64,000 bases of DNA, from contig NC_022600.1 of the NCBI RefSeq assembly GCF_000484535.1, positions 682,001-746,000 of the forward strand, given 5' to 3'. Source of the DNA: Gloeobacter kilaueensis JS1. GTDB taxonomy: Bacteria; Cyanobacteriota; Cyanobacteriia; Gloeobacterales; Gloeobacteraceae. This document shows, in pieces, positions 11,815 through 61,644 of this stretch. Each line of letters opens with the position of its first letter. The stretch's first letter is position 1. The notes below the pieces were generated by a model, which was given only the letters and a program-made list of their open reading frames with translations, was not told the origin of the DNA and made no database searches. The position numbers and the translations under genes were made by a program.

Positions 11815-11902
11815 GGCAACCCCTCCGCATGGTTCTTCCTTTCAGATTATCGTCGGTGGATCGTGCGCGCCGAAACTACCGCTTTAGACGGAGAAAGCTA
11901 AG

Positions 11903-12244: not shown

Positions 12245-12249
12245 GCACT

Positions 12250-12762: not shown

Positions 12763-12825
12763 GGATCCGTTCACTCCGAACGCTTATTTCAGTATTCTGC
12801 CACGCCAGTTTGCGTGCCGGGTGCG

Positions 12826-13920: not shown

Positions 13921-13933
13921 GTAAGCGAAATCA

Positions 13934-14007: not shown

Positions 14008-14014
14008 TAACAAA

Positions 14015-14045
14015 GAAACCCGCTGCTAGAGCGGGTTTCTTCTTT
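14015..14045 (+). terminator. rho-independent terminator after tRNA-Pro
   Basis: A 10-bp stem GAAACCCGCT / AGCGGGTTTC with loop GCTAG is followed by a T-rich tail (TTCTTTT). It lies 8 nt after the tRNA 3' end. Confidence 0.85.
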
Positions 14046-14388
14046 TGAGATTAGCATATATATTCAATCTCAAGCGTGAGAGCCAAGGCTAGTCGCTCAG
14101 GCTCGATCAGGAACTCATTACTCCTGAAAATTGCCTTAAACTTCTCCCGAGCTAGTAGGGGTCGTCAATTGCCAGGGCTATTGGGCCGATTTAGCCATAG
14201 CCATGTGCTTGCCCTCGAAGAAACCTTCAGAGCTTCAGGGTTGATTGACAATAACCCACTGTCCCGAGGGGCGGTATAGCGGTTTCTAATGCATTGCCCT
14301 CATTGAGATCAATGCCTACTGGAGATGTGCCTGCAGGTTCAGGAGTAGAAACCGACTAAAGCAGTTCTGTGATGCCCACAGCCTAACT
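14046..14388. other. noncoding accessory stretch with possible tRNA-Pro-derived fragments
   Basis: About 340 bp that are more AT-rich than the flanks and carry no convincing gene. A 13-bp sequence TAGTAGGGGTCGT at 14153-14165 is identical to tRNA-Pro positions 13972-13984. CCCACTGTCCCGA at 14255-14267 resembles the tRNA 3' end (CCCGCCGTCCCGA, 13995-14007) with two or three mismatches. These could be degraded remnants of an integration event, or coincidence. No integrase gene is visible. Confidence 0.35.
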
Positions 14389-14434
14389 AGCCAGACGGCT
14401 CGTCATTCTCCCCTCATTGGCTAGCCGGGCGGCT
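14389..14434. promoter_or_regulatory. paired inverted repeats, putative toxin-antitoxin operator
   Basis: Two copies of the dyad AGCC-RGRC-GGCT occur at 14389-14400 (AGCCAGACGGCT) and 14423-14434 (AGCCGGGCGGCT). They are 34 bp apart, about three helical turns, and about 70-110 bp upstream of the antitoxin start. Autoregulatory operators of toxin-antitoxin operons often look like this. The role is inferred from position and symmetry only. Confidence 0.45.
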
Positions 14435-14500
14435 AGTTATGCGTTACGATGTTGATCCAAAGGGATGTTTCGGGTTATATATCCCATAAAAGGGATGAAC

Positions 14501-14785
14501 ATGAGCGACAGCGGCAGGGACAAGGTGCAAAAGATTAAATCTTTTCTAGAGGAAAAGACGGACAGGCAATGGCTGCCTCATGGTGCAACCAGAGAGCAGA
14601 TAGGGTACCGTCTAGCTTCCCCAGGTTCTCAAAGCTGCGAGACACAGCACCCAGTCTGCAAAGAGATCCTCTTATCTAAGAGAGACTGGGATATTCTCCA
14701 GGTAGAACTGCAGGATACAACTCCATTGCCTGCAGAGCTTAGAGAGGAGGCTTTGCGCTTCATGGCTGAGCATGACTTGGATTGA
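14501..14785 (+). CDS. putative antitoxin of the GNAT toxin (DUF1778/TacA-like C-terminal region)
   Basis: The 94-residue protein lies 9 bp upstream of a GNAT toxin-like gene. Its C-terminal part, EILLSKRDWDILQVEL followed by PLPAELREEALRF, resembles the toxin-neutralising tail of DUF1778 (TacA-type) antitoxins. The N-terminal part lacks the expected ribbon-helix-helix pattern, so DNA binding is uncertain. The ATG at 14501 has AAAGGG 6-7 bp upstream; in-frame starts at 14495 and 14465 exist. The gene is AT-richer than chromosomal neighbours, consistent with transfer. It would neutralise the acetyltransferase by direct binding. Confidence rests mainly on the pairing. Confidence 0.6.
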   Translation: MSDSGRDKVQKIKSFLEEKTDRQWLPHGATREQIGYRLASPGSQSCETQHPVCKEILLSKRDWDILQVELQDTTPLPAELREEALRFMAEHDLD

Positions 14786-14794
14786 AGCAGGCAG

Positions 14795-15325
14795 GTGTCA
14801 TGGCAGTTTTTAGACATAGTAGAAGAAGGGGTCTTGATAGACCCCTCTTTTAAGTGCGGAAACAAATCAATAGACAGATATTTAACAAAGTACGCGGTCA
14901 AGAACCATAGAAACGATATATCGAGAGCTGTGGTTCTCGTGCCAGTGCTTGGCCCTAAATACGTTGTTGGTTTCTACACCCTTAGTAGTTACCACATTAG
15001 ATGGGACACTCTTCTTCCAGAGGACCAAGAGGAGATTCCCAAGTATGGCTGTCCCGCAACTTTAATTGGACAATTTGCTGTACATTTAGACAAGCAGGGG
15101 GAGGGCTTGGGAAGGAAGCTGTTAATGCACGCGTTCTATGAGTGCGTAAAGGGTTCAAAAGTTATTGGAAGCAAAGCAGTAGTAGTTGAAGTGCATCCAG
15201 AGGATCCGAGAAAGGACAAAAACCTCGCGGCCTATCAGGATAAGTGGAAATTCAGACCTCTCAAGGATAAGCCTTTAACACTCATTCTTAAGATGGATAA
15301 GGTTAGAAAGCTGTTCGAGCCGTAG
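14795..15325 (+). CDS. GNAT-family acetyltransferase, TacT/AtaT-like toxin
   Basis: The 176-residue protein has a GNAT fold. The N-terminus contains FKCGNKSIDRYLTKYAVKN, a close match to the FDCG-LDxFLxxYA opening of TacT/AtaT toxins. Then come VVGFYTLSSYH, the strand LIGQFAVHLDKQG and the acetyl-CoA loop GEGLGRKLL. Known relatives acetylate the amino group of aminoacyl-tRNAs and block translation. The GTG start at 14795 is 9 bp after the antitoxin stop. The later LAAYQDKWKFRPL replaces the usual YxxxGF segment and is somewhat divergent, so activity is not certain. Low GC and the neighbouring HicAB pair mark this patch as accessory. Confidence 0.8.
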   Translation: MSWQFLDIVEEGVLIDPSFKCGNKSIDRYLTKYAVKNHRNDISRAVVLVPVLGPKYVVGFYTLSSYHIRWDTLLPEDQEEIPKYGCPATLIGQFAVHLDKQGEGLGRKLLMHAFYECVKGSKVIGSKAVVVEVHPEDPRKDKNLAAYQDKWKFRPLKDKPLTLILKMDKVRKLFEP

Positions 15326-15518
15326 CAGTATAGCTAAGACCCATGGTACCGCCTGCACTTCTTGTGCTGTCCACTGTCCACAGACAAGCAGCCCTTCCTC
15401 GCCATCCATCCTCGCGGCGGTCAGTGCTGCTTGCAGCCAGAGGGTAGGATCGGCGCGCTCCAAGATGGAGAATGCGAGTAGGATAGCTTCGTACTTCCAC
15501 CTGCCTAAGTTGGTGTCT
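15326..15518. other. noncoding or decayed stretch after the GNAT toxin
   Basis: About 190 bp without a gene I can support. A short minus-strand open frame across it looks like a possible fragment (VCGQWTAQEVQAVPWVLAIL) but matches nothing I recognise. Confidence 0.3.
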
Positions 15519-15821
15519 ATGTCTCGCGCTCTTTTTCCTTGTGCAACTGTTCTAACTACTCTCCTCGTTTCTACAGCTACCCTGTATGCTCAGGAGACTA
15601 CTAAGTTTACAATCCCCAAGGCAGATGTCACTCTTGTGCCAGTCAGAACAGTCGCAGATGCGATGGGCTCTTATGTACCTTCGTTTCTGTTTTGGCCTGC
15701 TCCCGTGAGCACTCCGTCGTCCAGCCCTGCTGCTACCACTTCCCACGAGCCGACAGCAACTCCTACGCAGTCTTCAAATAGCAATGTAGGGGGTTGCTCA
15801 CCGCATAGCCAATCGCCTTGA
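15519..15821 (+). CDS. small putative exported protein, uncertain
   Basis: A 100-residue frame that opens with a plausible signal peptide (MSRALFPCATVLTTLLVSTATLYAQ), followed by a short folded-looking segment and a Ser/Thr/Pro-rich tail. An in-frame ATG at 15465 gives a longer version. There is no clear ribosome-binding site, no recognised family and no close neighbour to support it. It lies in the accessory patch between the two toxin-antitoxin modules. It may be spurious. Confidence 0.35.
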   Translation: MSRALFPCATVLTTLLVSTATLYAQETTKFTIPKADVTLVPVRTVADAMGSYVPSFLFWPAPVSTPSSSPAATTSHEPTATPTQSSNSNVGGCSPHSQSP

Positions 15822-15866
15822 TATAAGTACATTCTATGTTCAGCTTTGTATTGCCTGGGATGAAGC

Positions 15867-16112
15867 GTGCCGAAAAAGATTCGCGAGCTGAAGGCGATGT
15901 TATTGAAAGCAGGATTTCTTTGGGAGCCAGGCAAAGGCTCCCATACCAAATGGACTCATCCAGAACTACCTCAATTCACCATCATCCTTTCAGGTAATGA
16001 TGGAGATGACGCTCGACGCTACCAGGAAAAAAGTGTTGCCTCCGCTCTACAAGCTTTGCAGCAGGACGAGGAGTCATTATTGAATGAGGAGTCCAACAAT
16101 GGAGAATCTTAA
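15867..16112 (+). CDS. hicA: HicA-type mRNA interferase toxin
   Basis: An 81-residue protein with the HicA double-stranded-RNA-binding-like fold. The diagnostic catalytic segment is GKGSHTKWTHP, which contains the active His. The preceding KIRELKAMLLKAGFLWEP matches the usual first helix and strand. HicA toxins cleave mRNA and tmRNA to stop growth. The GTG start at 15867 gives the canonical N-terminus. A Glu-rich tail of about 15 residues extends past the domain and overlaps the hicB start by 14 bp, so the pair is translationally coupled. Confidence 0.85.
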   Translation: MPKKIRELKAMLLKAGFLWEPGKGSHTKWTHPELPQFTIILSGNDGDDARRYQEKSVASALQALQQDEESLLNEESNNGES

Positions 16113-16332
16113 ATACACTATTATCATCCGTTGGTCGGATGAGGACGAAGCCTTTTTGGTAGAATTGCCGGAATTTTTTGACGGTTTGCAACGGTATCGT
16201 ACCCACGGCAGCACCTATCAGGAGGCTTTCACCAATGCCCTGCAGGCGCTAGAGATGCTGGTAGAGCACCACCAGCAACAGGGGCGTCCTTTGCCGCCAG
16301 TTCCGATGTCGGAAGTTTGCGCGGGGATTTGA
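16099..16332 (+). CDS. hicB: HicB-type antitoxin
   Basis: The 77-residue protein is a short HicB with the partial RNase-H-like fold. Typical features are YTIIIRWSDEDEAFLVELPEF, then a Gly-Ser turn and AFTNALQALEMLVEHHQQQG. It lacks the C-terminal helix-turn-helix or ribbon-helix-helix that some HicB proteins use for autoregulation, so repression may be weak or need another factor. The ATG at 16099 is preceded by GAGGAG inside the end of hicA. It would bind and block HicA directly. Confidence 0.85.
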   Translation: MENLKYTIIIRWSDEDEAFLVELPEFFDGLQRYRTHGSTYQEAFTNALQALEMLVEHHQQQGRPLPPVPMSEVCAGI

Positions 16333-16342
16333 TGTAATTATC

Positions 16343-17359
16343 TTAGCCCCCAGTGTGCGCCTCAGCGCTCCCGAGCCGTTCGCGGTCGTGGGGAGTCGAT
16401 AATTCCTGCAGGTCGGGACCAGGGGGGATGATGCCGCCAGGGTTGAGGGGGAAGAGGTTGCCGTAGTAGTCGCAGCGGATCGTATCGAAGTCGCAGGTAT
16501 CGGCAATGCCTGGTAATTGATAGAGATCGCGCAGGTAACCCCAGAGATGAGCGTAGTCGCGCACACGGCGGCGGTTGCACTTGAAGAGGCCGTGATAGAC
16601 CAGATCGAAGCGGATGAGGGTCGTAAAGAGGCGCACATCGGCGAGGCTCAGCTTTTCACCACAGAGGTAGCGGCGGGTTTCAAGGGCCGCATCGATGTCA
16701 TCGAGGGCTGCAAAGAGGCGATTCACCGCCTGCTCGTAGGCAGATTGGCTCTGGGCAAAACCCGTGCGATAGACGCCGTCGTTGATAGCAGCGTAGATCC
16801 GGCTGTTCCACTCATCGATCTGGGCCTTTAATCCTTCAGGATAGAGATTCTGCCCAGGCCGGGCGGCGAAGCGCTCGAAGGCAGCATCGAGCAGGACGAT
16901 AATCTCAGCACTCTCGTTGTTCACGATCGTGCGCGTCTGGCTGTCCCAGAGCACCGGTACCGTGCTGCGGCCCGTGTAACCGGCCTGGGAGAGCCGATAA
17001 AATTCTGCCAGGCTGCGGCAGCCTTCGTGCGCCCGCTCGAAGACCCAGCCCCCTTCGAGCGGATCGGGAACGACGACGACAACGGGAATGGCCGCCTCCA
17101 GCCCCTTGATCGCCCGGACGACCAGGGTGCGGTGCGCCCAGGGACAGCCCATGCCGACGATCAGTCGGTAGCGCCCGGCCTGGGGCTGGTACGGGTTGTC
17201 CGGTGCGTCGCTTATCTGGTGGCGAAACTGGCTTTCAGGCCGGACGTAGGCTCCGGCGCGGTCGCGGGGAGCGAGCCTTGCCATCATCGTGTGCCAGAGA
17301 GCCGTCCAGGTAAAGCGGACGGCGGCGATCAAAAATTTGGAAGGTAACGCTTTTGGCAT
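16343..17359 (-). CDS. glutathionyl-hydroquinone reductase (Xi-class GST)
   Basis: The 338-residue protein reduces glutathionyl-hydroquinones to hydroquinones with glutathione (Xi-class, PcpF/YqjG/Ecm4 family). The catalytic Cys is in GMGCPWAHRTLVVRAI. The glutathione-binding stretch VPVLWDSQTRTIVNNESAEI and the C-terminal helical domain with LSLADVRLFTTLIRFD and YAHLWGYLRDLYQ are as expected. The start at 17359 is supported by AGGAGG 10 bp upstream; the frame opens earlier (17425) without a better site. It is divergent from the gene at 17437 and converges with hicB, whose stop is 10 bp away. It marks the return to chromosomal base composition. Confidence 0.93.
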   Translation of the reverse strand: MPKALPSKFLIAAVRFTWTALWHTMMARLAPRDRAGAYVRPESQFRHQISDAPDNPYQPQAGRYRLIVGMGCPWAHRTLVVRAIKGLEAAIPVVVVVPDPLEGGWVFERAHEGCRSLAEFYRLSQAGYTGRSTVPVLWDSQTRTIVNNESAEIIVLLDAAFERFAARPGQNLYPEGLKAQIDEWNSRIYAAINDGVYRTGFAQSQSAYEQAVNRLFAALDDIDAALETRRYLCGEKLSLADVRLFTTLIRFDLVYHGLFKCNRRRVRDYAHLWGYLRDLYQLPGIADTCDFDTIRCDYYGNLFPLNPGGIIPPGPDLQELSTPHDRERLGSAEAHTGG

Positions 17360-17436
17360 GGTGCGCCCGCCTCCTGACTGTGCCCAGCCTAACTGAAGCT
17401 TCCGGCAGCGTTTCTCGCCTTGCAAGTGTCAGTAAC

Positions 17437-18237
17437 ATGGAAGTACCTGAACGCGGTGCATCGATGGCGGAACCCCAGCGCTCCAAGCTCGAACTGGCCG
17501 GTTTGCCGATCGGCAACGCTACGCTCACCCGCGCCGTCCTGCAGGAAGTGTTCCAGATCCTCAAGCCCATCGCTCCAGACGGGAGCTGGACAATGCTCGA
17601 AGGCAACAAGGATATGCGGATCACCGAGCAGAAGCGCCAACTTGCCCTCGAGAACACCAAAGAAGAAATTACTGTCTGGGTGGACGCCTCGGTGCTCAAC
17701 CGTGGCCTGCAGCGCTGGATTGCCCTCGACTTTCAGCAGCCCAACCTTGAGGAGGTGCCGACAGCGGAGGCGGGCAACTGGCGGGTCTTTCTGCGCGGCC
17801 AGAGTGGTTCGATCGAGCTGGGCGACGGCGAGGCGACGGTCGGACTCGGGGTGGTGCTGCTGCTTAAATATGCGACGGCGGTGGGGGAGCTGGTCTCCTC
17901 GACGATCGCGGCCCAGGTGGAGGTACGGGGCATAGCGATTCCGGACATCAACGCCGATCGGGTGCTCATCCAGCTCAACGCCGCCCGGGTGCGCTGGGAG
18001 GACCGGGTGATCGAACCGCGCCTCACCGGGATTATTCTTAAAGCCGTGCTCAACCAGATTCCGTTTTTTCCGAGCCTGCCGGTGATGACGAGCTTTCTTT
18101 TGCCGTGGTTCGACTTTCGCCGCCAGGTGGGCCAGTTCGTACTCAGCTCGGTCGAAGTCCATCCTGGCAGGTTAAAGCTGGGCATGAAGTTCTTCGAGGC
18201 GGATCTGGTGAGAAGGCCGGAACTGGGCCGGACTTAG
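17437..18237 (+). CDS. conserved hypothetical protein
   Basis: A 266-residue soluble protein of mainly beta composition that I do not firmly recognise. An in-frame ATG at 17464 (MAEPQRSKLELAGLPIGN) is a possible alternative start; neither has a strong ribosome-binding site. Features are LENTKEEITVWVDASVLNRGLQ, a hydrophobic stretch VGLGVVLLLKYATAVGELV and a C-terminus with SSVEVHPGRLKLGMKFFEAD. The last element is reminiscent of the DUF2993/LmeA lipid-binding family, but the match is weak. Its stop overlaps the end of the convergent TPR gene by 4 bp. Confidence 0.6.
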   Translation: MEVPERGASMAEPQRSKLELAGLPIGNATLTRAVLQEVFQILKPIAPDGSWTMLEGNKDMRITEQKRQLALENTKEEITVWVDASVLNRGLQRWIALDFQQPNLEEVPTAEAGNWRVFLRGQSGSIELGDGEATVGLGVVLLLKYATAVGELVSSTIAAQVEVRGIAIPDINADRVLIQLNAARVRWEDRVIEPRLTGIILKAVLNQIPFFPSLPVMTSFLLPWFDFRRQVGQFVLSSVEVHPGRLKLGMKFFEADLVRRPELGRT

Positions 18238-19133
18238 GGGGTGACGGTCACGGTTGGCAGGGTGGCTGCCGCCTGCTCCGCCTGGACGCCGCGCTCGCGC
18301 TCGATCTGCTTGCGCGTCCCTTCGGGGAGCTGATCGCCTGCGGCCAGGGCGCGGTCGAACTGATCGACCGCCTCGGCGGCCCGTCCTTTAAGCGCAAGGA
18401 TCTGGCCCTTGAGGTAGTAGAGATCGGGGTTACTCGGGGCAGCGGCAAGCGCCTGATCGACCATGCCCAGGGCGTCGTCGTAGAGTTTTTTGTCCCGAAA
18501 GGCAAGGGCCTGGCCACGCATCGAAAGATAATTTGGGGCGGCCTTGCGAAATTCGCGGATTGCCTCGTCGTGTTTGGTGAGCAGGGTGTCGATGTAGCCT
18601 ACGAACAGGTTGATCTCCGGATCGTCCGGGGCAGTTTCGCGGGCCGCCTTAAATTCAAGAAACATCGACGGCACAAAGGTCAGCATCTTGGGCAGGGCGA
18701 TAAATCCGTCTTTGAGGTAATAGCTCGACGCTTCCAGACCCTGGGCCAGACCGGTGTAGAGGTGCGAGCGGCTCGGATCTTTAGAAGCCATCGCCTGGGC
18801 AACATCGCGGGTCTTTTTGGCAAGGGTCAAAAGCCGATCGACCTGGCCGTTCTGGTAGGCGAGGGCCGCCTGCAGGGTAAAGACCAGCGGCTCATCAGGA
18901 TTTTGCCGCTGGGCCAGCTCCAGCTTTTGAGCCGCATTTTGATAGTCGCCCCGCTTGAAGAAGTCCTCAAAAGCGCCCTGCAGCGCCGGGCCGATGGGCC
19001 GGGCAGCACCGCCTGTCCGAAAAGGATCCGCCGCCTGCGCCGGAAGTGTTCTCCAACTGCCACTGAGCATCAAGGCGGCGAGGCCCGCTAAAAAGAGCTG
19101 CTTTGCTTGTTTGCGCTTGGCTGTTTGCACCAT
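18234..19133 (-). CDS. exported TPR protein, Sll0314/Alr1548 type
   Basis: The 299-residue protein has a signal peptide (AKQLFLAGLAALMLSGSW through AQAAD). The mature start ADPFRTGGAARPIGPALQGAF resembles the cyanobacterial Sll0314/Alr1548 TPR family. At least four tetratricopeptide repeats follow, for example DYQNAAQKLELAQRQNPDEP and YDDALGMVDQALAAAPSNPD. TPRs mediate protein-protein contact, so it is probably a periplasmic scaffold. The start at 19133 gives a standard signal peptide; the frame opens earlier (19262). It is divergent from cysH. Confidence 0.8.
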   Translation of the reverse strand: MVQTAKRKQAKQLFLAGLAALMLSGSWRTLPAQAADPFRTGGAARPIGPALQGAFEDFFKRGDYQNAAQKLELAQRQNPDEPLVFTLQAALAYQNGQVDRLLTLAKKTRDVAQAMASKDPSRSHLYTGLAQGLEASSYYLKDGFIALPKMLTFVPSMFLEFKAARETAPDDPEINLFVGYIDTLLTKHDEAIREFRKAAPNYLSMRGQALAFRDKKLYDDALGMVDQALAAAPSNPDLYYLKGQILALKGRAAEAVDQFDRALAAGDQLPEGTRKQIERERGVQAEQAAATLPTVTVTP

Positions 19134-50399: not shown

Positions 50400-53300
50400 G
50401 TGACTCTTGCTCCGGGGCAGGTCGTGCGCGTCAGGTCGAGGCAGTATCTGGTGGAGAATATCCAACAGGGACGCTCAGCAGCAGAAGCTACGCTTGTTGC
50501 CCTCTCCTGCCTGGAAGACGACGCTTTGGGAGAGCGCCTGGAGGTGCTCTGGGAGCGGGAGGCCGACGCTCAGGAGGTAAGTGGGACGGCGTGGGGGACC
50601 GTAGCCGGGTCCGGATTCGACCAGCCACAAAAATTTTCTGCCTACCTGCACACGTTGCGCTGGCACTGTGTCACCGCTACTGACCCAAAACTCTTCCAGG
50701 CTCCTTACCGGGCAGGTATCGAGGTCAAAGCTTACCAGCTTGCGCCGCTGCGCAAAGCTCTGCTGTTGCCTCGGGTAAATTTGTTTATCGCCGACGATGT
50801 GGGACTCGGCAAGACGATCGAGGCCGGATTGATCCTCCGCGAGATGCTGATGCGCCAGAAGGTGCGCCGGGTGGTGATCGGCTGCCCGCCGTCGGTGGTG
50901 CGCCAGTGGGCGGAGGAGATGGAAAGTCGCTTTGGCCTGCTCTTTCAGATCTTCGATCGCCAGTTCGTCTCCCAGTGCCGTCAGGAGCGCGGCTGGGGAA
51001 TCAACCCCTGGACAACCCACAGCCGCTTTATCATCTCTCAGGCTCTACTGAGAGACGAAGCGTATGCCGAGCCGTTGCGCGCCTGGCTGGGAGACTTTGC
51101 TCCAGGGGCGATGCTCATCCTCGACGAAGCCCACAACGCTGCCCCTGCCAGCGGTACGAAGTACGCCATCGATTCGCAGCTCACGCGGGTCGTGCGCGAC
51201 CTCGCCCCGCGCTTCGAGCACAAGCTCTTTCTCTCGGCCACTCCGCACAACGGGCATTCCAACAGTTTCGCCGCCCTGCTGGAGATGCTCGATCCCCAGC
51301 GCTTCTGTCGGGGAGTGCCGATCAAGAATGCGAAGCAACTGGACGCAGTAATGGTCAGGCGGCTCAAAAGCGACCTCCGCGAAGTGGGCGAAGAGTTTCC
51401 GAGGCGCGAGGTGATCGCCCTGCGCCTGGCGGGGCTGGACGAGGATGCGCCGGAGTTGCTCCTTTCGCGCCTATTGGCCGATTATCGCAGGCTACGAGAA
51501 ACCAAACTCAAAGATGCCCCCCGCGCCCAGGCAACGGCGGCAATGCTGGTGCTCACCTCTCTCCAGAAGCGACTGCTCTCATCGATCGAAGCGTTCTACC
51601 GCACGCTCGGTGTGCATAAAAAAGCGCTCGGGCGGCAGGCCGAACGGCGTCCGTTTATCACCCGGAACCTGTCGCTTCTAGTGACAGGGGTTGGCCCCGA
51701 CGATGAGCGGGCCGATCTTAGCGAGGAGGATGTCGTCCTGGAAGAAGAAGCGCAGATCGAGCGGGCAAGCGCTGCCGGTGCTGCCGAAGATCTAAGCGAA
51801 GAAATCGCCCTCGTAGAGCGGATGCTGCAGGTGGCAGGCAGTGTCCGCTACGACCCCGACGTTAAAGTGCTGGCACTGGCGGACTGGCTGCGGGAGAACC
51901 TCTGCCCGGATCTGGGCCAGCCCGGTGCGCGCTGGTTAGATCGGCGAGTACTGATCTTTACAGAGTACATCGACACCAAGCGCTACTTGGTGGAGCAGTT
52001 AGAGAGCCTCATCGTCCGTTCTGACCGGGCCGAAGAGCGAATCGCTGCTTTTCATGGCGGCATGAGCGACGAGCGGCGCGAAGAGCTGAAAAGCGCCTTC
52101 AATGCGGCTCCAGCCGATTCTCCCCTGCGGATTCTGGTCGCCACCGACGCTGCCCGCGAAGGGGTCAACCTCCAAAATCACTGCGCCGACCTGTTCCACT
52201 TCGATATTCCCTGGAACCCAGGCCGGATGGAGCAGCGCAATGGCCGCATCGATCGCAAGTTGCAGCGTTCAGCGGCGATCCGCTGCTACTACTTCGTGTT
52301 GCCCCAGCGCAGCGAGGACCGCGTGCTGGATGTGCTGGTGCGCAAGACCCAGACGATTCAACAGGAACTGGGCAGTCTCTCGCCGGTACTGGAACAGCGG
52401 GTCGAGCGGCTGCTCGAAGCGGGCATTCGCCCGGAGCAAGTGGCCCAGATCGAAGCGGCAATCGAGGGAGCCGACGAGGCGGGAGACGATGGGCCGGGCC
52501 TCGCCGCAGTGCGCGAAGAATTAGAAAGTTCGCGGGTGCGCCTTGAGCCGCTGCAAAAGGAACTGGCCGATCTGCAGGAATTGCTCAAGATCTCCCGCGA
52601 CTGGTTGGGTCTGAGCGACAATCACTTTCGCGAGGCGCTGAATGCGTCGCTTGCCATCCTCGGTGCCGGTGACCTGGTGCCCGTGAGTGAAGCGGAGGCC
52701 CGCCACGATCCGGCGCGGGCACGGTGGGTATTTCCAGCCATAGACGAGCGCTTTGGAGCGGACCCGAGTTGGGCTGCGACCCTCGATACCCTGCGCGGAG
52801 CGCGGCAACCCGGTCAGAAGCCCTGGCAGTGGCGCAAGGAATCACCGATCCGGCCCGTGATCTTTCGCGATCCGGGCAACCTCGATGGCAAAGTCGTCCA
52901 CCTGCACCTGGAGCAGCGGGTGGTCAAGCGCCTGTTGGGCCGCTTTCTCTCCCAGGGCTTTGTCCACGACGAACTCAGCCGCGCCTGCGTCGTTCTCACC
53001 GATGATCCCAGGCCAAAGGTCGTCGTCCTCGGGCGGCTGTCGCTCTACGGCGAACTGGCGGCCCGCCTGCACGACGAGGTGATTGCGGTGGCAGCCGAAT
53101 GGATACCGCCTGAAAGGCGCGGACGCAGCAGGCTCCAGCCCCTCACCCTTGCCGGGCAGGGGGACGTGCTCGCTCTGGTCGAAGCGTCCCTGGCAACCCC
53201 GCGCCTCTGGGAGGTGGGTGAGAGTGCAAGGGCACTGCTCAAAAATGCCGCCGCCCAGGATGTCGAGGAACTGGAACCGCACCTGAAACGGCGCTCCGAC

Positions 53301-53621
53301 ATTTTGGCGGAACGGGCAACGAAGAAGTTGAGTGAGCGCGGCCTCAAGGAAGCAGCCGAGATGCGCAAGTTGCTCGAAGAGCAGCGCAGGCTCATCGAAA
53401 AGCGCTTTCAAGACACCGGGGGCGACCGACAACTCGAACTGCGCTTCGCTGCGGACGAGCGGCGGCAATTAGAGGCGGATCGGCGGCACTGGCAACGGCG
53501 GCTCACCGACCTCGAAGCGGAGCTGACAACTGAACCCGCCCGCATCGAAGCCAACTACCAGATCAAGGCGGTGCGGATCGAACCGGTGGGCATCGTCTAC
53601 CTCTGGCCTGTTTCGGGGTGA
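50400..53621 (+). CDS. drmD: DISARM SNF2-like helicase DrmD
   Basis: The 1073-residue superfamily 2 translocase has an N-terminal DrmD-type opening (LAPGQVVRVRSRQYLVENIQ). Motif I is ADDVGLGKTIEAGLI (about 132), motif II LILDEAHNA, motif III LSATPHNGHSN, and motifs V/VI VATDAAREGVNLQ and RMEQRNGRIDRKLQ. The C-terminal part is rich in charged helices (about 940-1040). In class 1 DISARM, DrmD accompanies the adenine methylase and helps restrict phage DNA. It starts with GTG at 50400, and drmMI follows 18 bp after its stop. The base composition is similar to the host, so the system is not a very recent arrival. Confidence 0.88.
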   Translation: MTLAPGQVVRVRSRQYLVENIQQGRSAAEATLVALSCLEDDALGERLEVLWEREADAQEVSGTAWGTVAGSGFDQPQKFSAYLHTLRWHCVTATDPKLFQAPYRAGIEVKAYQLAPLRKALLLPRVNLFIADDVGLGKTIEAGLILREMLMRQKVRRVVIGCPPSVVRQWAEEMESRFGLLFQIFDRQFVSQCRQERGWGINPWTTHSRFIISQALLRDEAYAEPLRAWLGDFAPGAMLILDEAHNAAPASGTKYAIDSQLTRVVRDLAPRFEHKLFLSATPHNGHSNSFAALLEMLDPQRFCRGVPIKNAKQLDAVMVRRLKSDLREVGEEFPRREVIALRLAGLDEDAPELLLSRLLADYRRLRETKLKDAPRAQATAAMLVLTSLQKRLLSSIEAFYRTLGVHKKALGRQAERRPFITRNLSLLVTGVGPDDERADLSEEDVVLEEEAQIERASAAGAAEDLSEEIALVERMLQVAGSVRYDPDVKVLALADWLRENLCPDLGQPGARWLDRRVLIFTEYIDTKRYLVEQLESLIVRSDRAEERIAAFHGGMSDERREELKSAFNAAPADSPLRILVATDAAREGVNLQNHCADLFHFDIPWNPGRMEQRNGRIDRKLQRSAAIRCYYFVLPQRSEDRVLDVLVRKTQTIQQELGSLSPVLEQRVERLLEAGIRPEQVAQIEAAIEGADEAGDDGPGLAAVREELESSRVRLEPLQKELADLQELLKISRDWLGLSDNHFREALNASLAILGAGDLVPVSEAEARHDPARARWVFPAIDERFGADPSWAATLDTLRGARQPGQKPWQWRKESPIRPVIFRDPGNLDGKVVHLHLEQRVVKRLLGRFLSQGFVHDELSRACVVLTDDPRPKVVVLGRLSLYGELAARLHDEVIAVAAEWIPPERRGRSRLQPLTLAGQGDVLALVEASLATPRLWEVGESARALLKNAAAQDVEELEPHLKRRSDILAERATKKLSERGLKEAAEMRKLLEEQRRLIEKRFQDTGGDRQLELRFAADERRQLEADRRHWQRRLTDLEAELTTEPARIEANYQIKAVRIEPVGIVYLWPVSG

Positions 53622-53639: not shown

Positions 53640-56600
53640 ATGGCGGACAACACGGTACTACAAGCGCACAGGCAATGGCTGGGACTCCTGCAGCCGGTTG
53701 GTCTGGTTGTCTCGCCTCTGGCCCTTGTGCGCGCCGGGGCGATCGTCAATCACAACGTCTTTGCCCTGCAACAGGAATTACAGGATCTGCTCGCCGAAGC
53801 CAGAGAAACAGCGGACGGAATCGACAATTATCCTATCGACTTCGAGCGCTTCGCCGGACGCCTTTTGGGCTGGGAAGCTGACGATCTGGCCGGTAGCGCG
53901 GACGGGCCAGAATTGCCGGAAGATCTGAGCGTCGCCCTGCCGGATCTAGGAGAACTGCTCACCCCCCGCTACGCAGTCTTTGATCTTGACGCAGAGCGCA
54001 AGGGGCTGCTTCTGGTCCAGGTTCTCCCACCGGGAGCGGACCTCGACGCCGCCACCCACGACAGCGCCTGGACGGCCAGTGCCCAGGCCCGGATGGAGCG
54101 CTTGCTGCGCGAGAACGAGATCTCCATCGGCATTCTCTGGAATTCTCGAACGCTGCGCCTCATCTACTATCCAAAGGGCGAATCGTCGGGGCACCTCGAT
54201 TTTCCGGTAGAGACGATGGCCACCGTGGGCGGACGGCCCATTCTCGGTGCGCTACAGATGCTTCTCGGAGCCGATCGCCTCTTTAACCTGCCCGCCGACC
54301 GCCGACTGGAAGCACTGCTGGCCGCCAGCCGCAAGTACCAGAACGAAGTCTCAAACCGGCTGGCAGACCAGGTTCTCGACGCTCTATGGGAGTTATTGCG
54401 CGGTTTTCAGATGGCCGACGAGGCTGCCGATGGGCGGCTATTGGGCGAGGTGGCCCGGAGCGCGCCCAGCCACATCTACGGCGGGCTGATTGCGGTCCTG
54501 ATGCGGCTGGTGTTTTTGCTCTACGCCGAGGACCGGGGCTTGATGCCCCAAGATCCGATTTACGAGCGCGGTTACTCGCTCACCGGCCTCTTCGAGCGGT
54601 TGCGCATCGACTGGGGCAACTACCCCGATACGATGGACCAGCGCTTCGGAGCCTGGGCCGCACTGCTGAGTTTGTTTCGCCTGGCCTTCGAGGGGGCGGC
54701 CCACGGCGAATTTTCGCTACCGGCCCGCCAGGGCCAGTTGTTCAACCCCGACGAGTACCCCTTTTTAGAGGGCCGCCCCTGGCAGACGAACCGGGTAATG
54801 GGCGAGCGCATCCAGCCGCCCCGCGTGCCGGACGGAGTGATCTACCGGGTGCTCGACAAGCTGCTCGTACTGGGGGGCGAACGGCTCTCCTACCGTTCCC
54901 TCGATGTCGAGCAAATTGGTTCAGTTTACGAGGCGGTGATGGGTTTTGCCGTCGAGCGGGCCGGTGGTCGGTCCATTGGCCTGACGAGCAAGCCCAAAGG
55001 CTCGAAGGTCTCGGTGACGGTCGTCGTCGATCTCGATCGCTTGCTTGCGACGAAGCCGGGCGAGCGGGCGAAGTGGCTCAAGGACAACGCCGGGTGCGAA
55101 GTGACGGGCAACGCCCTGAACGAACTCAAAAAAGCGACCACCCCCGAGCAACTGAATGCCGCCCTCGAAAAGCGGATCTCGAAGCGCACCGCCGGGCTTT
55201 TACCGGCGGGTTCTCTCTACCTGCAGCCAGGCGAAGAGCGGCGGCGAACCGGTTCGCACTACACCCCGCGCACCCTGACCGAACCTATCGTCCGCCACAC
55301 CCTGGAGCCGGTGATCGCCAACCTGGGAGCCCAGCCCACCGCCGACCAGATTCTAAATCTCAAAATCTGCGACCCGGCGATGGGTTCCGGAGCCTTTCTG
55401 GTCGAAGCCTGCCGCCAGTTGGCCGAGCATCTGGTGGAAGCCTGGAACGTGCATCGATCCCAGCCTGCCATCCCCGCCGACGAAGATCCCCTGCTGCACG
55501 CCCGCCGCCTGGTCGCCCAGCGCTGCCTCTACGGCGTGGACAAAAACCCCTTCGCCGTCAACCTGGCCAAACTCTCACTGTGGCTGGTCACCCTCGCCAA
55601 AGAACATCCTTTTACTTTCCTCGACCACGCCCTCAAACACGGCGACTCGCTGGTGGGCCTGGGCCGCGAAAACATCGGTGCCTTCAGTTGGATACCCCAA
55701 GCTCCCCACTACGGGCCGCTCTTCCAGAACATCAGCCGCCAGATCGATGATGCCCGCCACTACCGCGAACAGATTGCCGACCTGGGCGACGACGGTGACA
55801 CCCAAAAGCGACAACTGCACAAAGAAACCGAGGACGCCCTCGCCGAAGCCCGTCTGGCCGGAGATCTGATCGTCGCCGCCTACTTTTCATCTGAGAAAGA
55901 CGCAGCGCGAGAAGCCTATCGTAAGGCGGTGCGCCAAAAATTCGAGGACTGGCAAAGTGGCAGCGATTATATCAATGACTTGTTGTCCATTGCCCAAAGT
56001 TTGCGCGAACAGGAAAAACCGCTCCCGCCCTTCCACTGGGAGATTGAATTTCCAGAAGTCTTTGGACGCACCAATCCAGGCTTCGACTGTTTCATCGGCA
56101 ACCCACCGTTCGCCGGGAAGAACACAACGATCAACTCTAATCCAGAGGGTTATCTCGACTGGCTGAAAGTGCTGCATCCAGGCTCCCACGGCAACGCCGA
56201 TATCGTTGCCCACTTCTTCCGTCGCACTTTCAACCTCCTGAACCAGGGAGGAACCATAGGTTTAATCGCCACCAACACGATTGCTCAGGGTGACACGCGC
56301 AGTACCGGCCTGCGCTGGATCTGCTTGAACGAGGGAACGATCTACCGCACTCAAAAGCGCCTGAAGTGGCCTGGCCTGGCTGCGGTCGTCGTCAGCGTGG
56401 TCAACATCCATAAGGGAATGTACAGCGGACAGAAAACTCTAGATGGAATTGCAGTTCCAGAAATTACAGCGTTCTTGTTCCATACAGGTGGCAGCGATGA
56501 TCCTGTTACTTTAGAAGCGAATGCGGGCAAAAGCTTTCAAGGCAGTATCCTTCTTGGCATGGGCTTCACCTTTGACGACACCAATGCTGAAGCCAGCCCG

Positions 56601-57698
56601 GTTGCCGAGATGGAACGCCTGATCCAAAAAGATCCTCGCAACGCCGAGAGAATCTTTCCCTACATCGGCGGTGATGAGGTCAATAACAGCCCGACCCATG
56701 CGCACCGCCGCTACGTGATCAACTTCGCTGACTTTCCTTTGCAAAGAGAAAATTTAGGCAAATCCTGGTTCGTAGCGACAGAACGAGAGCAGGAAACGTG
56801 GTTGCGCTCGGGCATCGTACCGGCTGATTATCCTGGGCCAGTTGCAGTTGATTGGCCGGATCTATTGCATATTGTGGAAGAGAAGGTGAAGCCAAGACGA
56901 TTGCTTGATAATCGAGCTTCATATAGGAAGTTTTGGTGGCAGTTCGCCGAGAAGAGGACCGACTTGTTTCAGGCGATTCAAAGTTTGACACGGGTGTTAG
57001 TGATTAATTGCGGGGCATCAAAATTCATATCCTTTACTTGGCTTCAGTCCAACACGATATATGCAAATACGCTCGATATAATTGTTGTAGAAACCGATAA
57101 CGGTTTTGGTATTCTTCAATCTCGCATACACGAAATCTGGGCTCGCTTCTTTGGATCATCAATGAAGGACGATCTCCGTTACACGCCCTCCGACTGCTTC
57201 GAGACGTTTCCGTTCCCAGAAAGTTGGGGGTCGAATCTCATGCTCGAAGCAGCAGGCCAGGAATATTACGGGTTTCGGGCTGCTCTGATGATCCGCAACA
57301 ATCAGGGCTTGACCGATACCTATAACCGCTTTCACGATCCTAATGAGTTCAATCCCGATATTCTCGAACTGCGGGAGCTGCACGCTGCGATGGACCGGGC
57401 CGTGCTCAATGCTTACGGTTGGACGGATATTCCAACAGGTTGTGAGTTTTTGCTCGATTACGAGGACGAGGAATCCGAGGAGGAGAGTAGCAGTCGGCAG
57501 AAGAAGAAGCCCTGGCGATATCGGTGGCCCGATGAGGTGCGCGACGAGGTGCTGGCACGGTTGCTGGAGCTGAATCGGCAACGGGCGGAGGAGGAGCAGT
57601 TTGCGGGGCTGGCTGCGCAACAGGCACCGGCTAAGCGCAAGGGCGGGCCAAGAGCCAGGAAGCCGGAACAGGAACCACCTGCACTGCCAGGCTTGTAG
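53640..57698 (+). CDS. drmMI: DISARM class 1 adenine methyltransferase DrmMI
   Basis: The 1352-residue protein is a large N6-adenine methyltransferase of the Eco57I type. Motif I is ICDPAMGSGAFLVEACRQL (about 580) and motif IV is GNPPFAGKN (about 820). A long N-terminal region (about 1-550) resembles the helical part of combined restriction-modification proteins. A specificity region follows the catalytic domain and is AT-rich at 56,880-57,150. It would mark host DNA so DISARM spares it. It lies between drmD and the nested accessory genes. No nuclease motif is evident at the N-terminus, which separates it from type IIG enzymes, though this cannot be excluded. Confidence 0.87.
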   Translation: MADNTVLQAHRQWLGLLQPVGLVVSPLALVRAGAIVNHNVFALQQELQDLLAEARETADGIDNYPIDFERFAGRLLGWEADDLAGSADGPELPEDLSVALPDLGELLTPRYAVFDLDAERKGLLLVQVLPPGADLDAATHDSAWTASAQARMERLLRENEISIGILWNSRTLRLIYYPKGESSGHLDFPVETMATVGGRPILGALQMLLGADRLFNLPADRRLEALLAASRKYQNEVSNRLADQVLDALWELLRGFQMADEAADGRLLGEVARSAPSHIYGGLIAVLMRLVFLLYAEDRGLMPQDPIYERGYSLTGLFERLRIDWGNYPDTMDQRFGAWAALLSLFRLAFEGAAHGEFSLPARQGQLFNPDEYPFLEGRPWQTNRVMGERIQPPRVPDGVIYRVLDKLLVLGGERLSYRSLDVEQIGSVYEAVMGFAVERAGGRSIGLTSKPKGSKVSVTVVVDLDRLLATKPGERAKWLKDNAGCEVTGNALNELKKATTPEQLNAALEKRISKRTAGLLPAGSLYLQPGEERRRTGSHYTPRTLTEPIVRHTLEPVIANLGAQPTADQILNLKICDPAMGSGAFLVEACRQLAEHLVEAWNVHRSQPAIPADEDPLLHARRLVAQRCLYGVDKNPFAVNLAKLSLWLVTLAKEHPFTFLDHALKHGDSLVGLGRENIGAFSWIPQAPHYGPLFQNISRQIDDARHYREQIADLGDDGDTQKRQLHKETEDALAEARLAGDLIVAAYFSSEKDAAREAYRKAVRQKFEDWQSGSDYINDLLSIAQSLREQEKPLPPFHWEIEFPEVFGRTNPGFDCFIGNPPFAGKNTTINSNPEGYLDWLKVLHPGSHGNADIVAHFFRRTFNLLNQGGTIGLIATNTIAQGDTRSTGLRWICLNEGTIYRTQKRLKWPGLAAVVVSVVNIHKGMYSGQKTLDGIAVPEITAFLFHTGGSDDPVTLEANAGKSFQGSILLGMGFTFDDTNAEASPVAEMERLIQKDPRNAERIFPYIGGDEVNNSPTHAHRRYVINFADFPLQRENLGKSWFVATEREQETWLRSGIVPADYPGPVAVDWPDLLHIVEEKVKPRRLLDNRASYRKFWWQFAEKRTDLFQAIQSLTRVLVINCGASKFISFTWLQSNTIYANTLDIIVVETDNGFGILQSRIHEIWARFFGSSMKDDLRYTPSDCFETFPFPESWGSNLMLEAAGQEYYGFRAALMIRNNQGLTDTYNRFHDPNEFNPDILELRELHAAMDRAVLNAYGWTDIPTGCEFLLDYEDEESEEESSSRQKKKPWRYRWPDEVRDEVLARLLELNRQRAEEEQFAGLAAQQAPAKRKGGPRARKPEQEPPALPGL

Positions 57699-57775
57699 GC
57701 ACCTGGGTAGCGGTCGAATAGAGCCAGTGGTTGCCAACTATTGAAGCAGTGTTGATCCGTCTACGAGTGCGTACT

Positions 57776-58345
57776 CTACCTTGCTTTTGATCTTTGCCTG
57801 GGTGCAACGGATTTCAAGAAAGAGACTACTTCCTGGAACAAGCGATGCTGCGACATTTTGGTGATGTCATCATCGGTTAGTTCGCTTAGCAGCACTGTAA
57901 CGTCGGGTAAAAGCCGTTCTCTAGCCAGGCTTTGAAGAAGCTGCTTGGGAGCTGATTGGGTCAAATTTTGCTCTACGGCTGTTAACTTTCGCCCATCTTT
58001 CAATTTCGATTCGACAATCGAGGGATCTGCGAAAAAAACAATCTCCAGTTCAGGAAGTGCGACCAGTATTCGATAAGGCTGCGCTGGTGTAACCCAGTTC
58101 AAGTAGCTCTCAAGCTCTTGTTTTCTTATTCTTGCCAGCTCTGGGTCGTTTGTGTCTGCATCCATCACGACAAGCAATGGATGGGGCACTCCAACAATAA
58201 TGGTTCGGGCAACGATAGAAAGCCGATTTCTGCTGTTAGCGACGAAGTAACGAAATTCAAATTCTTGAGCTTCAGGAATAGCTTTCAAAATTGTCTCAAG
58301 CAGAAGTTTATCAAGTTCCGTTTCGACAACTACTTCTATCTTCAT
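57776..58345 (-). CDS. TOPRIM-like protein of a nested nuclease operon
   Basis: The 189-residue protein has a TOPRIM-like pattern: Glu in VVVETELDKLLLETIL and the DxD in LLVVMDADTNDPE, then VALPELEIVFFADPS. These resemble DUF4276/OLD-type TOPRIM proteins that need an ATPase or nuclease partner. The ATG overlaps the stop of the nuclease-like gene by 4 bp (ATGA), so both are made together. The gene is on the strand opposite to the DISARM genes and AT-richer. Function is not established; homology is from motifs only. Confidence 0.6.
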   Translation of the reverse strand: MKIEVVVETELDKLLLETILKAIPEAQEFEFRYFVANSRNRLSIVARTIIVGVPHPLLVVMDADTNDPELARIRKQELESYLNWVTPAQPYRILVALPELEIVFFADPSIVESKLKDGRKLTAVEQNLTQSAPKQLLQSLARERLLPDVTVLLSELTDDDITKMSQHRLFQEVVSFLKSVAPRQRSKAR

Positions 58346-58923
58346 GGGTTGCTCTCGTAGTCAGCTTTTAGATCCAGCAATGCCTCTTTTCGCTCAACTG
58401 CTTGTCGCAGCTTTCGTCTCACACCATCCATCATACGCTGCTGTGGAAGGGTAGCGTCGATGTCTTCAGCAGTCCACAGCAGTACGTTGAGAGGAGTCGC
58501 AAAGGAGGCGTAGAGCTTTGCGACCTGCGTAAAACCAGATGCACTGACCAAAATACCCATCGTGAGTGGCGGTCTCCCTTCAAGCCGAAAACGGAGTTTA
58601 GCCAGCGGTTCTACATCAACTTCTTTACTCAGACACTTTGATTCGACCAGGAAAGTGCCAAGTCGAGTATAGATGGCTCCATCAATTTGTTCGAGGGTGC
58701 CGAGTCTGAGTTGTTCGGAGGTGAAACCGTAAGGCCATCGAACTTCCTCGTATCGTGTACTTTCCAGCTCAAGGTCGAAACCACGCAAAAATATGTATTC
58801 GAGGGCGTAGCCCCTTCCTCCCCAGGCTCCCATAGGTTTGCCCTCGCGCAAGCGTCGCCAGTGCCTCATGAGCTGGCGATGGGTCAAAGATTTTGCTCTG
58901 CTCAACCGCTCGGCATCTGTCAT
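58342..58923 (-). CDS. PD-(D/E)XK restriction-endonuclease-like protein
   Basis: The 193-residue protein shows a nuclease core. Asp in EQIDGAIYTRLG and the strand FLVESKCLS give D-X(n)-E-X-K. GILVSASGFTQVAKLYA resembles the core of Mrr-like endonucleases (a strand and helix after the catalytic Lys). The N-terminus is basic and helical (LTHRQLMRHWRRLREGK), suitable for DNA contact. The ATG at 58923 is chosen for a GGAAG site; a GTG at 58935 is possible. It is first in a two-gene minus-strand operon with the TOPRIM-like gene. It may be a defence nuclease nested in the DISARM locus. Confidence 0.65.
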   Translation of the reverse strand: MTDAERLSRAKSLTHRQLMRHWRRLREGKPMGAWGGRGYALEYIFLRGFDLELESTRYEEVRWPYGFTSEQLRLGTLEQIDGAIYTRLGTFLVESKCLSKEVDVEPLAKLRFRLEGRPPLTMGILVSASGFTQVAKLYASFATPLNVLLWTAEDIDATLPQQRMMDGVRRKLRQAVERKEALLDLKADYESNP

Positions 58924-59009
58924 ACACGCTTCCACACAGTTTAGAAATTAGAGCAGGGCAAGTATGCACAGAGCAACAACTTACACCTGCCAGACAAAGT
59001 CCCTGACAA

Positions 59010-59327
59010 GTGGAACCGAACCGGCAGGCCGGTCATCTCCCGCCTGAGTTTGAATCTGCTGCCGGAGAAGTCCTCGTTCGCTTTCTGCCAACCGGATACG
59101 TACCTCCGTCTCGCATTGGTCACGACCTGAGTCCCTTGCAGCAGCGGTTGCTCGAAGTGCTGGCTGTTACTGGCTCAGCTTCCCTGAGCACGATCAGGAC
59201 TCACCTGGATCCACCCGTCCCCGAACGTACCGTTCAAGAGAACCTGCAGCTGCTTCGTCGGTTAGAACTGGTAGGTTCTTCAGGCAAGGGACGGGGTGCG
59301 CGCTGGTTATTGAATGCTACAACCTAG
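59010..59327 (+). pseudogene. C-terminal remnant of an AlbA_2/Schlafen-like ATP-binding protein
   Basis: A 105-residue frame starting at GTG 59010, with an in-frame stop two codons upstream. LPPEFESAAGEVLVRFLPTGY followed by a winged-helix section (SPLQQRLLEVLAVTG...RTVQENLQLLRRLELVGSS) matches the C-terminus of AlbA_2-type putative DNA-binding ATPases. The N-terminal AlbA_2 and ATP-binding parts are missing, so it is probably a truncated gene. It could instead survive as a small winged-helix regulator of the nested genes. Low confidence in expression. Confidence 0.5.
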
Positions 59328-59640
59328 CACATATAAGGACATTTGTTCCGCGCCATTCCGCGTCATTCCGCGCCATTCCGCGCCATTCCGCGTGATCGCC
59401 TCATGGATAAAATCTGCTACATCGCCTCTATCTAGTCGATTGGTTGCTCTAGAAACAGCCTCTAGAATCGTTCTCAGTTCGCGAGCGAGTTTAGTGTCTC
59501 CGAGTGCCCGGAAACGAAGTGCTCCAGGAAAGAAGGCTACTTTTCTTGTAATAGCTCGAAGGTTTCTTGTGAGGTACGAGGAGGAAAGCCTTGCAGTCTT
59601 CTTCGAGTAGACTGTCTTCGTACCCGTTTTGTAGAAATCC
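59328..59640. other. region with 10-bp tandem repeat; weak reading frames
   Basis: About 310 bp between the winged-helix remnant and the ATPase gene. A minus-strand open frame (59307-59642, 111 residues) and a plus-strand one are open, but the repeat lies in both and neither resembles a known protein. A decayed gene is possible. The promoter of the ATPase gene should lie toward the right edge. Confidence 0.35.
59346..59395. repeat. five tandem 10-bp repeats
   Basis: Units of TTCCGCGCCA repeat five times in a row with single-base changes (copies 1, 3 and 4 identical; copy 2 TTCCGCGTCA; copy 5 TTCCGCGTGA). The unit length is not a multiple of 3, so it is unlikely to be selected as protein. It may be a slippage-prone or regulatory element. 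Confidence 0.9.
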
Positions 59641-60939
59641 ATGATCCGGCGAGTAAAGATTACTGGCTATAAATCTCTAAGGGATGTGGAGATCAACCCT
59701 TTGCCCCAGATAACGCTGATATTTGGGCCTAACGCAGCGGGTAAGAGCAACCTCTTCGATGCGCTGGGCCTGCTTAGTCGCACAGCTGGAGCCAATGCAA
59801 CCCTGAAAGATGCGTTTCGAGCCCACAGAGGAACGCCCCTGGAGGCTTTTAGCTTCGATGAGACAGGATTGGAGGGTCTATTAAAAAAGAAAAGTGCCCA
59901 GTTTACGATCGAAGTGGATGTGTCCTTGTCTGACTCGGTTATATCGCTTGTCGAGGCAGAAATAAAGCAAATGCGTTCGGGTCTGACTGAAGAGCATAGC
60001 AAAGAGCGAAGAATTGTCGAAAAATTGCTGAGGTACAGGCTGACAGTCGAAATCTTGACAGATTCGGGCCATCTTAGAGTTTTAGACGAGTATCTGGCAG
60101 CCGTCAGCCGCACAGGCGAACGCAAGAAGAGCAGAAATCCATTTATCGAAAGTGTATACGAAAAAGAACCGGGCCGGATACGACTGCGAATGGAAGGACA
60201 GTCGCATCCAACGGATTATGAGATGGGATTGGATTATACTCTAGTCTCTCGACCCCTGTATGTTCCGCATTATCCGCATATTACCGCTTTTAGAGAAGAA
60301 CTCAAGCGATGGAGGTTCTACTACCTTTCTCCTGAGGCGATGAGAGCAGAAGCTCCTCTGAAGCAGGTTGAAGTTCTTGACTACATGGGCGAGGATCTAG
60401 CCCCCTACTTCAATTCGCTCAAAGCAACGAATGAAAAGCAGTTTAATACTTTAGTAAAAACTTTTAGAACCATACTTCCGCAAATAGAAAAGCTCGATAT
60501 TGAACGTTCAGCGGATGGGCTGCTGAGATTAACGGTGCAAGAAAATGGAATCCATTATTCGGCACGAGTCGTTTCTGAGGGAACACTGAGACTCCTTGGT
60601 TTACTTGCGATCACCAATCCGATGACACCGGCGAGCGTTGTCGGTTACGAAGAGCCGGAAAACGGGGTACATCCGCGACGTTTAGCGCTGATCGCCAGAC
60701 TTCTAATTGGTGCTGGCCAGCGGGACACCCAGTTCATCGTCAATAGCCACTCGCCTGTTCTGCCCGAATATTTTGATGATATAAACTTAATAATGTGCCG
60801 TCGCTTGAGCGGCCAAACAGTTTTTGAGCCTTTTGACAGCCTGGGCAATCTTTATAGAAAAGAAGACATCGAAAAAGCATTGGAAGATGAGCCGCTGCCT
60901 TTGAGTTCAAGGTTGGTCAGAGGCGATTATGGCGGATAA
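59641..60939 (+). CDS. SMC/OLD-like AAA ATPase (AAA_15/AAA_21)
   Basis: The 432-residue protein is an ABC-type ATPase related to OLD, RloA and AriA. Walker A is FGPNAAGKSNLFDALG (about 29-44). The signature motif is SEGTLRLLGLL, Walker B is VGYEEPENGVHP and the H-loop is VNSHSP. About 220 middle residues form the arm region. The ATPase lacks its own TOPRIM domain but overlaps by 11 bp a gene that may provide one. Such pairs commonly act as antiphage systems, sensing phage proteins and then degrading nucleic acid or tRNA. It lies between drmMI and drmA and is AT-richer than they are. Confidence 0.82.
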   Translation: MIRRVKITGYKSLRDVEINPLPQITLIFGPNAAGKSNLFDALGLLSRTAGANATLKDAFRAHRGTPLEAFSFDETGLEGLLKKKSAQFTIEVDVSLSDSVISLVEAEIKQMRSGLTEEHSKERRIVEKLLRYRLTVEILTDSGHLRVLDEYLAAVSRTGERKKSRNPFIESVYEKEPGRIRLRMEGQSHPTDYEMGLDYTLVSRPLYVPHYPHITAFREELKRWRFYYLSPEAMRAEAPLKQVEVLDYMGEDLAPYFNSLKATNEKQFNTLVKTFRTILPQIEKLDIERSADGLLRLTVQENGIHYSARVVSEGTLRLLGLLAITNPMTPASVVGYEEPENGVHPRRLALIARLLIGAGQRDTQFIVNSHSPVLPEYFDDINLIMCRRLSGQTVFEPFDSLGNLYRKEDIEKALEDEPLPLSSRLVRGDYGG

Positions 60940-61546
60940 GATAAGACTCGGTTATTTTCTGGAAGATAGTGGTCACGAAGAATTTATCCTGGGTCTTGTA
61001 GAGCATATAGCCGAAGAAGCAGGATACCACCGTCAGCAGCTCAGCAACGATGTTAGAAACTCTACCGGCGGCAAGGGCCGGGTCATCTCTGCTCTACAAA
61101 AGTTTTTGCAGGAGCTTAGAGTTGGAGACAACAATCCGTTCGACTTCCTGATAGTTGCAATAGATGGCAATTGCACTGGCTTTCTACAAAAACGTACAGA
61201 GGTCCAAGAGCTGGCTGAGCGCTCAAAATTTACTGGCAACATCATCTGTGCTATCCCCGATCCTCATATAGAGCACTGGTACATGGCAGATCCGCTATCT
61301 TTTAAAAAGGCTACAGATCTTGACTCTCAACCTGTTCCACCCAAATACAAGTGCGAAAAAGAGATTTATAAAAAGGCACTTATCGAAGCTTTTGCAAAAT
61401 GTGGTGTCATTCCACCTTTGGACGGCATAGAGTACGGAAGAAACTTTGCCCTGGAGATGAACCTCTACGACGCATGTCAGAGGTGTCCTTCCCTCGGTCA
61501 TTTCGTCGATGAGGTTAGAACGGCCCTTGCTTCGGTTCTCAGATAA
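60929..61546 (+). CDS. putative TOPRIM-like effector partner of the ATPase
   Basis: The 205-residue protein overlaps the ATPase gene by 11 bp. The N-terminus LGYFLEDSGHEEFILGLV has the Glu and Glu pair expected of a TOPRIM start. FDFLIVAIDGNCTGF may be the second acidic strand, and PDPHIEHWYMAD resembles the conserved Ile-Glu-x-Trp of DUF4276-like proteins. In related pairs (RloAB, AriAB of PARIS, split OLD systems) the partner is the nuclease. It does not clearly match DUF4435, so it may be a separate subtype. The function is inferred from pairing. Confidence 0.6.
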   Translation: MADKIRLGYFLEDSGHEEFILGLVEHIAEEAGYHRQQLSNDVRNSTGGKGRVISALQKFLQELRVGDNNPFDFLIVAIDGNCTGFLQKRTEVQELAERSKFTGNIICAIPDPHIEHWYMADPLSFKKATDLDSQPVPPKYKCEKEIYKKALIEAFAKCGVIPPLDGIEYGRNFALEMNLYDACQRCPSLGHFVDEVRTALASVLR

Positions 61547-61644
61547 ATACTTTCTCGAACGATTGCCATCGTGCAAAAACTACCAAAGAAGCTTTGGAGC
61601 CGGTAGGATAGGGTACATTTGTTTATCAGGCTGTGCTTCCAGAC

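Follow-up and report, generated by a model that had tools for sequence, protein, structure and literature searches.

We analysed a stretch of 64,000 nucleotides (hereafter the window) from the genome of Gloeobacter kilaueensis JS1, a single contig of 4,724,791 bp, and followed up a pair of minus-strand genes located within a DISARM locus. Gene A (58342–58923, 193 aa, with its ATG at 58923) encodes a predicted PD-(D/E)XK nuclease of the Mrr_cat type, and gene B (57776–58345, 189 aa) encodes a predicted solo OLD-type TOPRIM protein. The two genes overlap by 4 bp on the minus strand in an ATGA sequence (58342–58345) that supplies both the stop codon of gene A and the start codon of gene B, an arrangement suggesting that their translation is likely coupled. 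Overlapping or abutting A–B junctions were seen again in relatives. The DISARM genes lie on the opposite strand to the pair, with DrmD (50400–53621) and DrmMI (53640–57698) upstream and DrmA (from 61633) downstream; DrmB and DrmC are located just past the window end, making the class 1 DISARM system complete.

Also located between DrmMI and DrmA is another module of two genes, encoded on the plus strand (59641–61546) and consisting, by profile match, of a HEC-01/MAD3-like ATPase (59641–60939) and its partner, a DUF4276 TOPRIM protein (60929–61546). At 59346–59396, ahead of the ATPase gene, lie roughly five tandem copies of a 10 bp unit, TTCCGCGYCA. Divergent from gene A is an ORF of 105 aa (59010–59327) that weakly matches a winged-helix domain and may be what is left of the C-terminus of a larger DNA-binding protein; no relatives of this ORF were found beside other pairs. 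Promoter-like and terminator-like sites flanking the pair did not exceed chance, and the search for an operator-like repeat around the pair yielded none that was convincing.

Gene A matched the Pfam Mrr_cat profile (PF04471) with 26.1 bits, above the gathering cut-off of 21, and the same profile matched 32 of its 33 relatives at E ≤ 0.1. Its putative catalytic core, E42-D81-E94xK96, was conserved at all four residues in every one of the 33 relatives. The AlphaFold model of gene A (pLDDT 89.7) was closest among solved structures to the nicking enzyme Nt.BspD6I (Z 13.3, 3.4 Å over 169 residues), followed by R.BspD6I2 (Z 12.3), Can1 and AF1548 (Z 11.4) and FokI (Z 11.0), with MspJI, AspBHI and EndoMS also among the solved fold matches. 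The prediction that gene A is a PD-(D/E)XK nuclease of the Mrr_cat type is thus well supported at the level of the modelled fold. The Mrr_cat family takes in modification-dependent enzymes. A separate DNA-recognition domain was seen in neither the gene A nor the gene B chain. Sequence searches of the PDB gave no meaningful match, no relative was detected in viral contigs scanned with the gene A alignment, and no match was obtained in phage records searched with gene A of one relative (L059) or among the PHROG models.

For gene B, the AlphaFold model (pLDDT 92.8) best matched the C-terminal TOPRIM region of OLD (Z 11.3, 3.8 Å, 170 of 204 residues), with further matches to GajA (Z 9.9) and AriB (Z 8.3). 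Non-TOPRIM folds came near in score, namely, the Argonaute MID domain (Z 10.6) and lumazine synthases (Z 9.5–9.8), but the OLD alignments spanned far more residues than these competing folds. The Foldseek E-value was weak when taken alone (0.0055). The fold comparison by itself is not decisive, and the TOPRIM assignment rests also on sequence matches: gene B alone weakly matched the HEC-01B (2.5e-6) and MAD4 (0.005) profiles, and its relatives matched OLD-like_TOPRIM (15/39) and DUF3226 (16/39), as well as Toprim_3 and DUF4276. Taking model and profiles together, the predicted OLD-type TOPRIM fold of gene B is well supported. The six OLD-type metal-site residues, E8, D12, D62, D64, E99 and E101, are all intact in the window copy. 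The metal ligands of BpOLD are E400, E404, D455, D457, T506 and E508 (PMC6755086). By motif alignment, made without superposition, the EGxxD, DxD and PxxE motifs of gene B appear to correspond to E400/E404, D455/D457 and T506/E508 of BpOLD, respectively (PMC6755086). Gene B consists of the TOPRIM part alone and has no ATPase match, unlike OLD and GajA, and the pair itself encodes neither an ATPase nor a methylase.

The initial annotation, made from the letters of the window, had described two overlapping minus-strand genes opposed to the DISARM genes, the first with a D-X(n)-E-X-K core and an Mrr-like strand, the second with an E/DxD TOPRIM-like pattern, and the pair with no methylase or ATPase of its own. 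The coordinates and the ATGA overlap confirmed this layout, the profile and structure predictions gave the two folds that it had named, and the pairing that it proposed to survey was found conserved in other genomes, as follows.

To survey the class, 390 genomes were searched for gene A relatives at E ≤ 1e-10. Relatives were found in 38 genomes, or 33 after the removal of five with distant Mrr proteins; the reciprocal search with gene B identified 35 genomes. Distant Mrr proteins that carry a long N-terminal part and have no gene B after them (L010 and L015–L018) were excluded. In cyanobacteria and Calditrichota, 32 loci combined an intact gene A with readable flanks, and every one of them had an intact gene B directly downstream; in one Caldithrix locus (L002), the two genes were fused into one ORF of 357 aa. 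Because the pairing is conserved in dozens of loci and one fused gene exists, chance pairing is excluded. The evolutionary distances of A and B were correlated (r 0.86), with none of 1000 permutations reaching as high a value. The neighbour survey (678 genes around 38 loci) revealed no conserved third gene recurring with the pair and no ATPase recurring beside it. These observations establish the pair as a conserved two-gene module.

The distribution of the pair was patchy: it was found in approximately 8% of the class genomes and in one of four genomes of this genus. Some genomes hold several copies, pseudogenes are frequent, and plasmid-borne pairs were found in Leptolyngbya NIES-3755 and Rhizobium beringeri. 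In the plasmid records, gene A is annotated as a restriction endonuclease or a hypothetical protein, and gene B as a hypothetical protein. The neighbours of the pair were mixed, with housekeeping genes common; some pairs lie near type I restriction–modification genes, MADS-like genes or integrases. The module is probably horizontally mobile.

The two genes were under unequal constraint. While the gene A core was kept in 33 of 33 relatives, the metal site of gene B was fully intact in only 24 of 39, the window copy among them, where an intact site was defined by the presence of E8, D12 (or E), D62, D64 and E101. The departures from this site require at least seven changes on the tree, three of which are forced by well-supported branches. 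Mean column identity was 43% for gene B versus 55% for gene A, and faster overall evolution of gene B may explain part of the metal-site drift. Since the site is degenerate in 15 of 39 relatives, gene B may not be a nuclease across the whole family. In one gene B clade (L008, L014, L019, L038 and L050), E101 is missing along with approximately 30 residues from the helical part; this natural deletion variant may be non-catalytic. A description of gene B as a dead enzyme was considered and dropped, since 24 of the 39 relatives, the window copy included, retain the complete site. The reading of gene B as a second nuclease is compatible with the intact site of the window copy but may not extend to the 15 relatives in which that site is degenerate.

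The two genes also decayed unequally. Excluding loci cut by contig ends, 14 loci had a broken or missing gene A and an open gene B frame, compared with a single reverse case (binomial p 0.001), a Rhizobium locus (L013) in which gene B is truncated C-terminally. Gene A was interrupted by stop codons in three of the 14 loci (L126, L131 and L134) and by frameshifts in four (L158, L150, L159 and L009), was reduced to fragments in three (L127, L146 and L149) and was absent from four (L138, L144, L038 and L152, with gene B shortened in L152). In Leptolyngbya NIES-3755, the reading frame of gene A is broken, each time separately, in three of the four pair copies (L158, L150 and L159), while gene B is open in them; without these three frameshift copies, the ratio is 11:1. 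The examined lesions differ in kind, indicating that they arose independently. Several of the breaks fall just past the ExK motif, for which programmed frameshifting or a mutational hot spot was considered and rejected; as the lesions comprised a stop, an insertion and deletions, independent decay is the simpler account. At loci without an intact gene A, the pairwise dN/dS of gene B against the nearest intact relative was approximately 0.1–0.35 where computable, near the values of intact pairs, although such pairwise figures include the intact lineage.

Taken together, these asymmetries, in active-site constraint and in decay, suggest that gene B may restrain gene A. We consider it about an even chance (approximately 50%) that the pair is a stand-alone two-gene module in which A is the effector and B its obligate partner, most likely one that restrains A. 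Under this model, the gene A product would be a PD-(D/E)XK endonuclease that is costly to the host, and the gene B product would bind it and hold it in check, either as an antitoxin-like inhibitor or as a licensing subunit, and could persist once A is lost. The target would presumably be foreign DNA, and the module would act in defence or as an addiction module. Based on the patchy spread, the plasmid copies and some of the neighbours (type I restriction–modification genes, MADS-like genes and integrases), the pair probably serves anti-phage or anti-plasmid defence. Such a pattern would resemble that of toxin–antitoxin modules, and that of restriction–modification systems, where restriction genes are lost before methylases. 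However, the loss of gene A could reflect the plain cost of A, without any inhibition by B, and the intact metal site of the window gene B fits an active nuclease equally well.

A less probable reading, though the strongest of the alternatives, is that both proteins are active and together form an ATP-independent restriction enzyme resembling type IV systems, in which each subunit cuts or nicks. Recognition, for example of modified or damaged DNA, would then take place within the complex, and the arrangement would resemble Gabija or PARIS with a PD-(D/E)XK nuclease replacing the ATPase. The six filled OLD-type positions of the window gene B and the suitable set in 24 of 39 relatives are in line with this reading, as are the nickases and modification-dependent enzymes among the fold neighbours of gene A (Nt.BspD6I, MspJI and AspBHI) and the inclusion of such modification-dependent enzymes in Mrr_cat. 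Against it, the metal site of B was lost several times while A stayed intact, neither chain shows a DNA-recognition domain, and B is kept without A. A cooperative two-nuclease complex is possible above all for copies with an intact B site, such as that of the window.

The pair departs from known systems in its combination of parts. As in PARIS (AriA–AriB) and the split OLD systems (HEC-01, MADS3/4 and AbiL), a small separate TOPRIM protein stands beside a partner, and the HEC-01B, AbiLii, AriB and MAD4 models give weak matches to gene B or to relatives of it, with the AriB fold at Z 8.3 as above; the partners in those systems are ABC or AAA ATPases, whereas the partner of gene B is a PD-(D/E)XK nuclease, with no ATPase linked. 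Solo OLD-type TOPRIM defence proteins with ATPase partners are known. GajA and the OLD nucleases share with gene B the same OLD-type TOPRIM with a helical extension, but gene B lacks their ATPase domain and the pair lacks the GajB helicase. Gene A resembles the Mrr-type (type IV) restriction endonucleases of PF04471 in its above-threshold match and full core, and differs from them in having no visible separate DNA-binding domain and in always having a TOPRIM protein as its partner. Type II toxin–antitoxin and restriction–modification pairs likewise consist of two overlapping genes of which the effector goes first and the partner stays; the pair shows no antitoxin or methylase fold, and only the 14:1 asymmetry of decay points towards a type II toxin–antitoxin module.

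None of the models in PADLOC (2023), NCBIfam, Pfam or PHROGs matched the pair, and no description of the pairing was found in the open-licence papers searched, a coverage from which a newly coined name may have escaped; to this extent, the view of the initial annotation that the combination is not a named system holds. The parts are known; what appears to be new is how they are combined and the asymmetry of that combination. We tentatively propose, at less than even odds, that an OLD-type TOPRIM protein shed its ATPase and, in several lineages, the metal site as well, and became specialised as the inhibitor, or as a licensing subunit, of a PD-(D/E)XK nuclease, constituting an unnamed class of conflict module. 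If true, the strict pairing with a nuclease and the dispensable TOPRIM site would mean that the TOPRIM fold is used as a regulator, a nuclease fold turned antitoxin, and the pair would offer a simple two-protein test case. The pair would also supply a model that is missing from defence-annotation tools.

Some TOPRIM proteins (e.g., RecR) and PD-(D/E)XK nucleases (e.g., EndoMS) function in DNA repair, and EndoMS is among the solved matches of gene A; nevertheless, we regard it as improbable that the pair forms a nuclease for repair or recombination instead of a conflict module, because a patchy (approximately 8%), plasmid-borne, multicopy gene pair that is often found as pseudogenes is unlike a repair gene.

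Finally, we analysed the relation of the pair to DISARM, on whose parts the initial annotation had suggested that it depends. With presence scored at E ≤ 1e-100, the DISARM methylase DrmMI was detected in 55 of the 390 genomes, including 9 of the 33 pair-bearing genomes, and was absent from the remaining 24; no DISARM parts were found near the pair in any other genome surveyed. That the pair is a DISARM accessory, drawing on the methylase or helicase of that system to tell self from non-self, is highly unlikely: its position between DrmMI and DrmA in the window and a weak co-occurrence (9 genomes versus approximately 4.7 expected; Fisher p 0.034, uncorrected for genome size) are outweighed by its transcription against the DISARM operon, by the 24 genomes without DrmMI, and by the lack of any other pair close to DISARM parts together with the different filling of the gap at other loci. 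On the latter three grounds, the last being the varying gap cargo, we conclude that the pair is cargo inside the DISARM locus and not a DISARM subunit, and the suggested dependence is left unsupported. At four further cyanobacterial DISARM loci, the genes inserted between DrmMI and DrmA are unrelated and differ from locus to locus, and this gap looks like a cargo hot spot of cyanobacterial DISARM. The cargo gap extends over 57698–61633 in the window and, at the other four loci, over 10377–18817 (L115), 9193–12886 (L116), 8340–13480 (L117) and 8777–13313 (L118). Some of the inserts in these gaps resemble toxin–antitoxin or DUF262-like proteins, as judged by eye.
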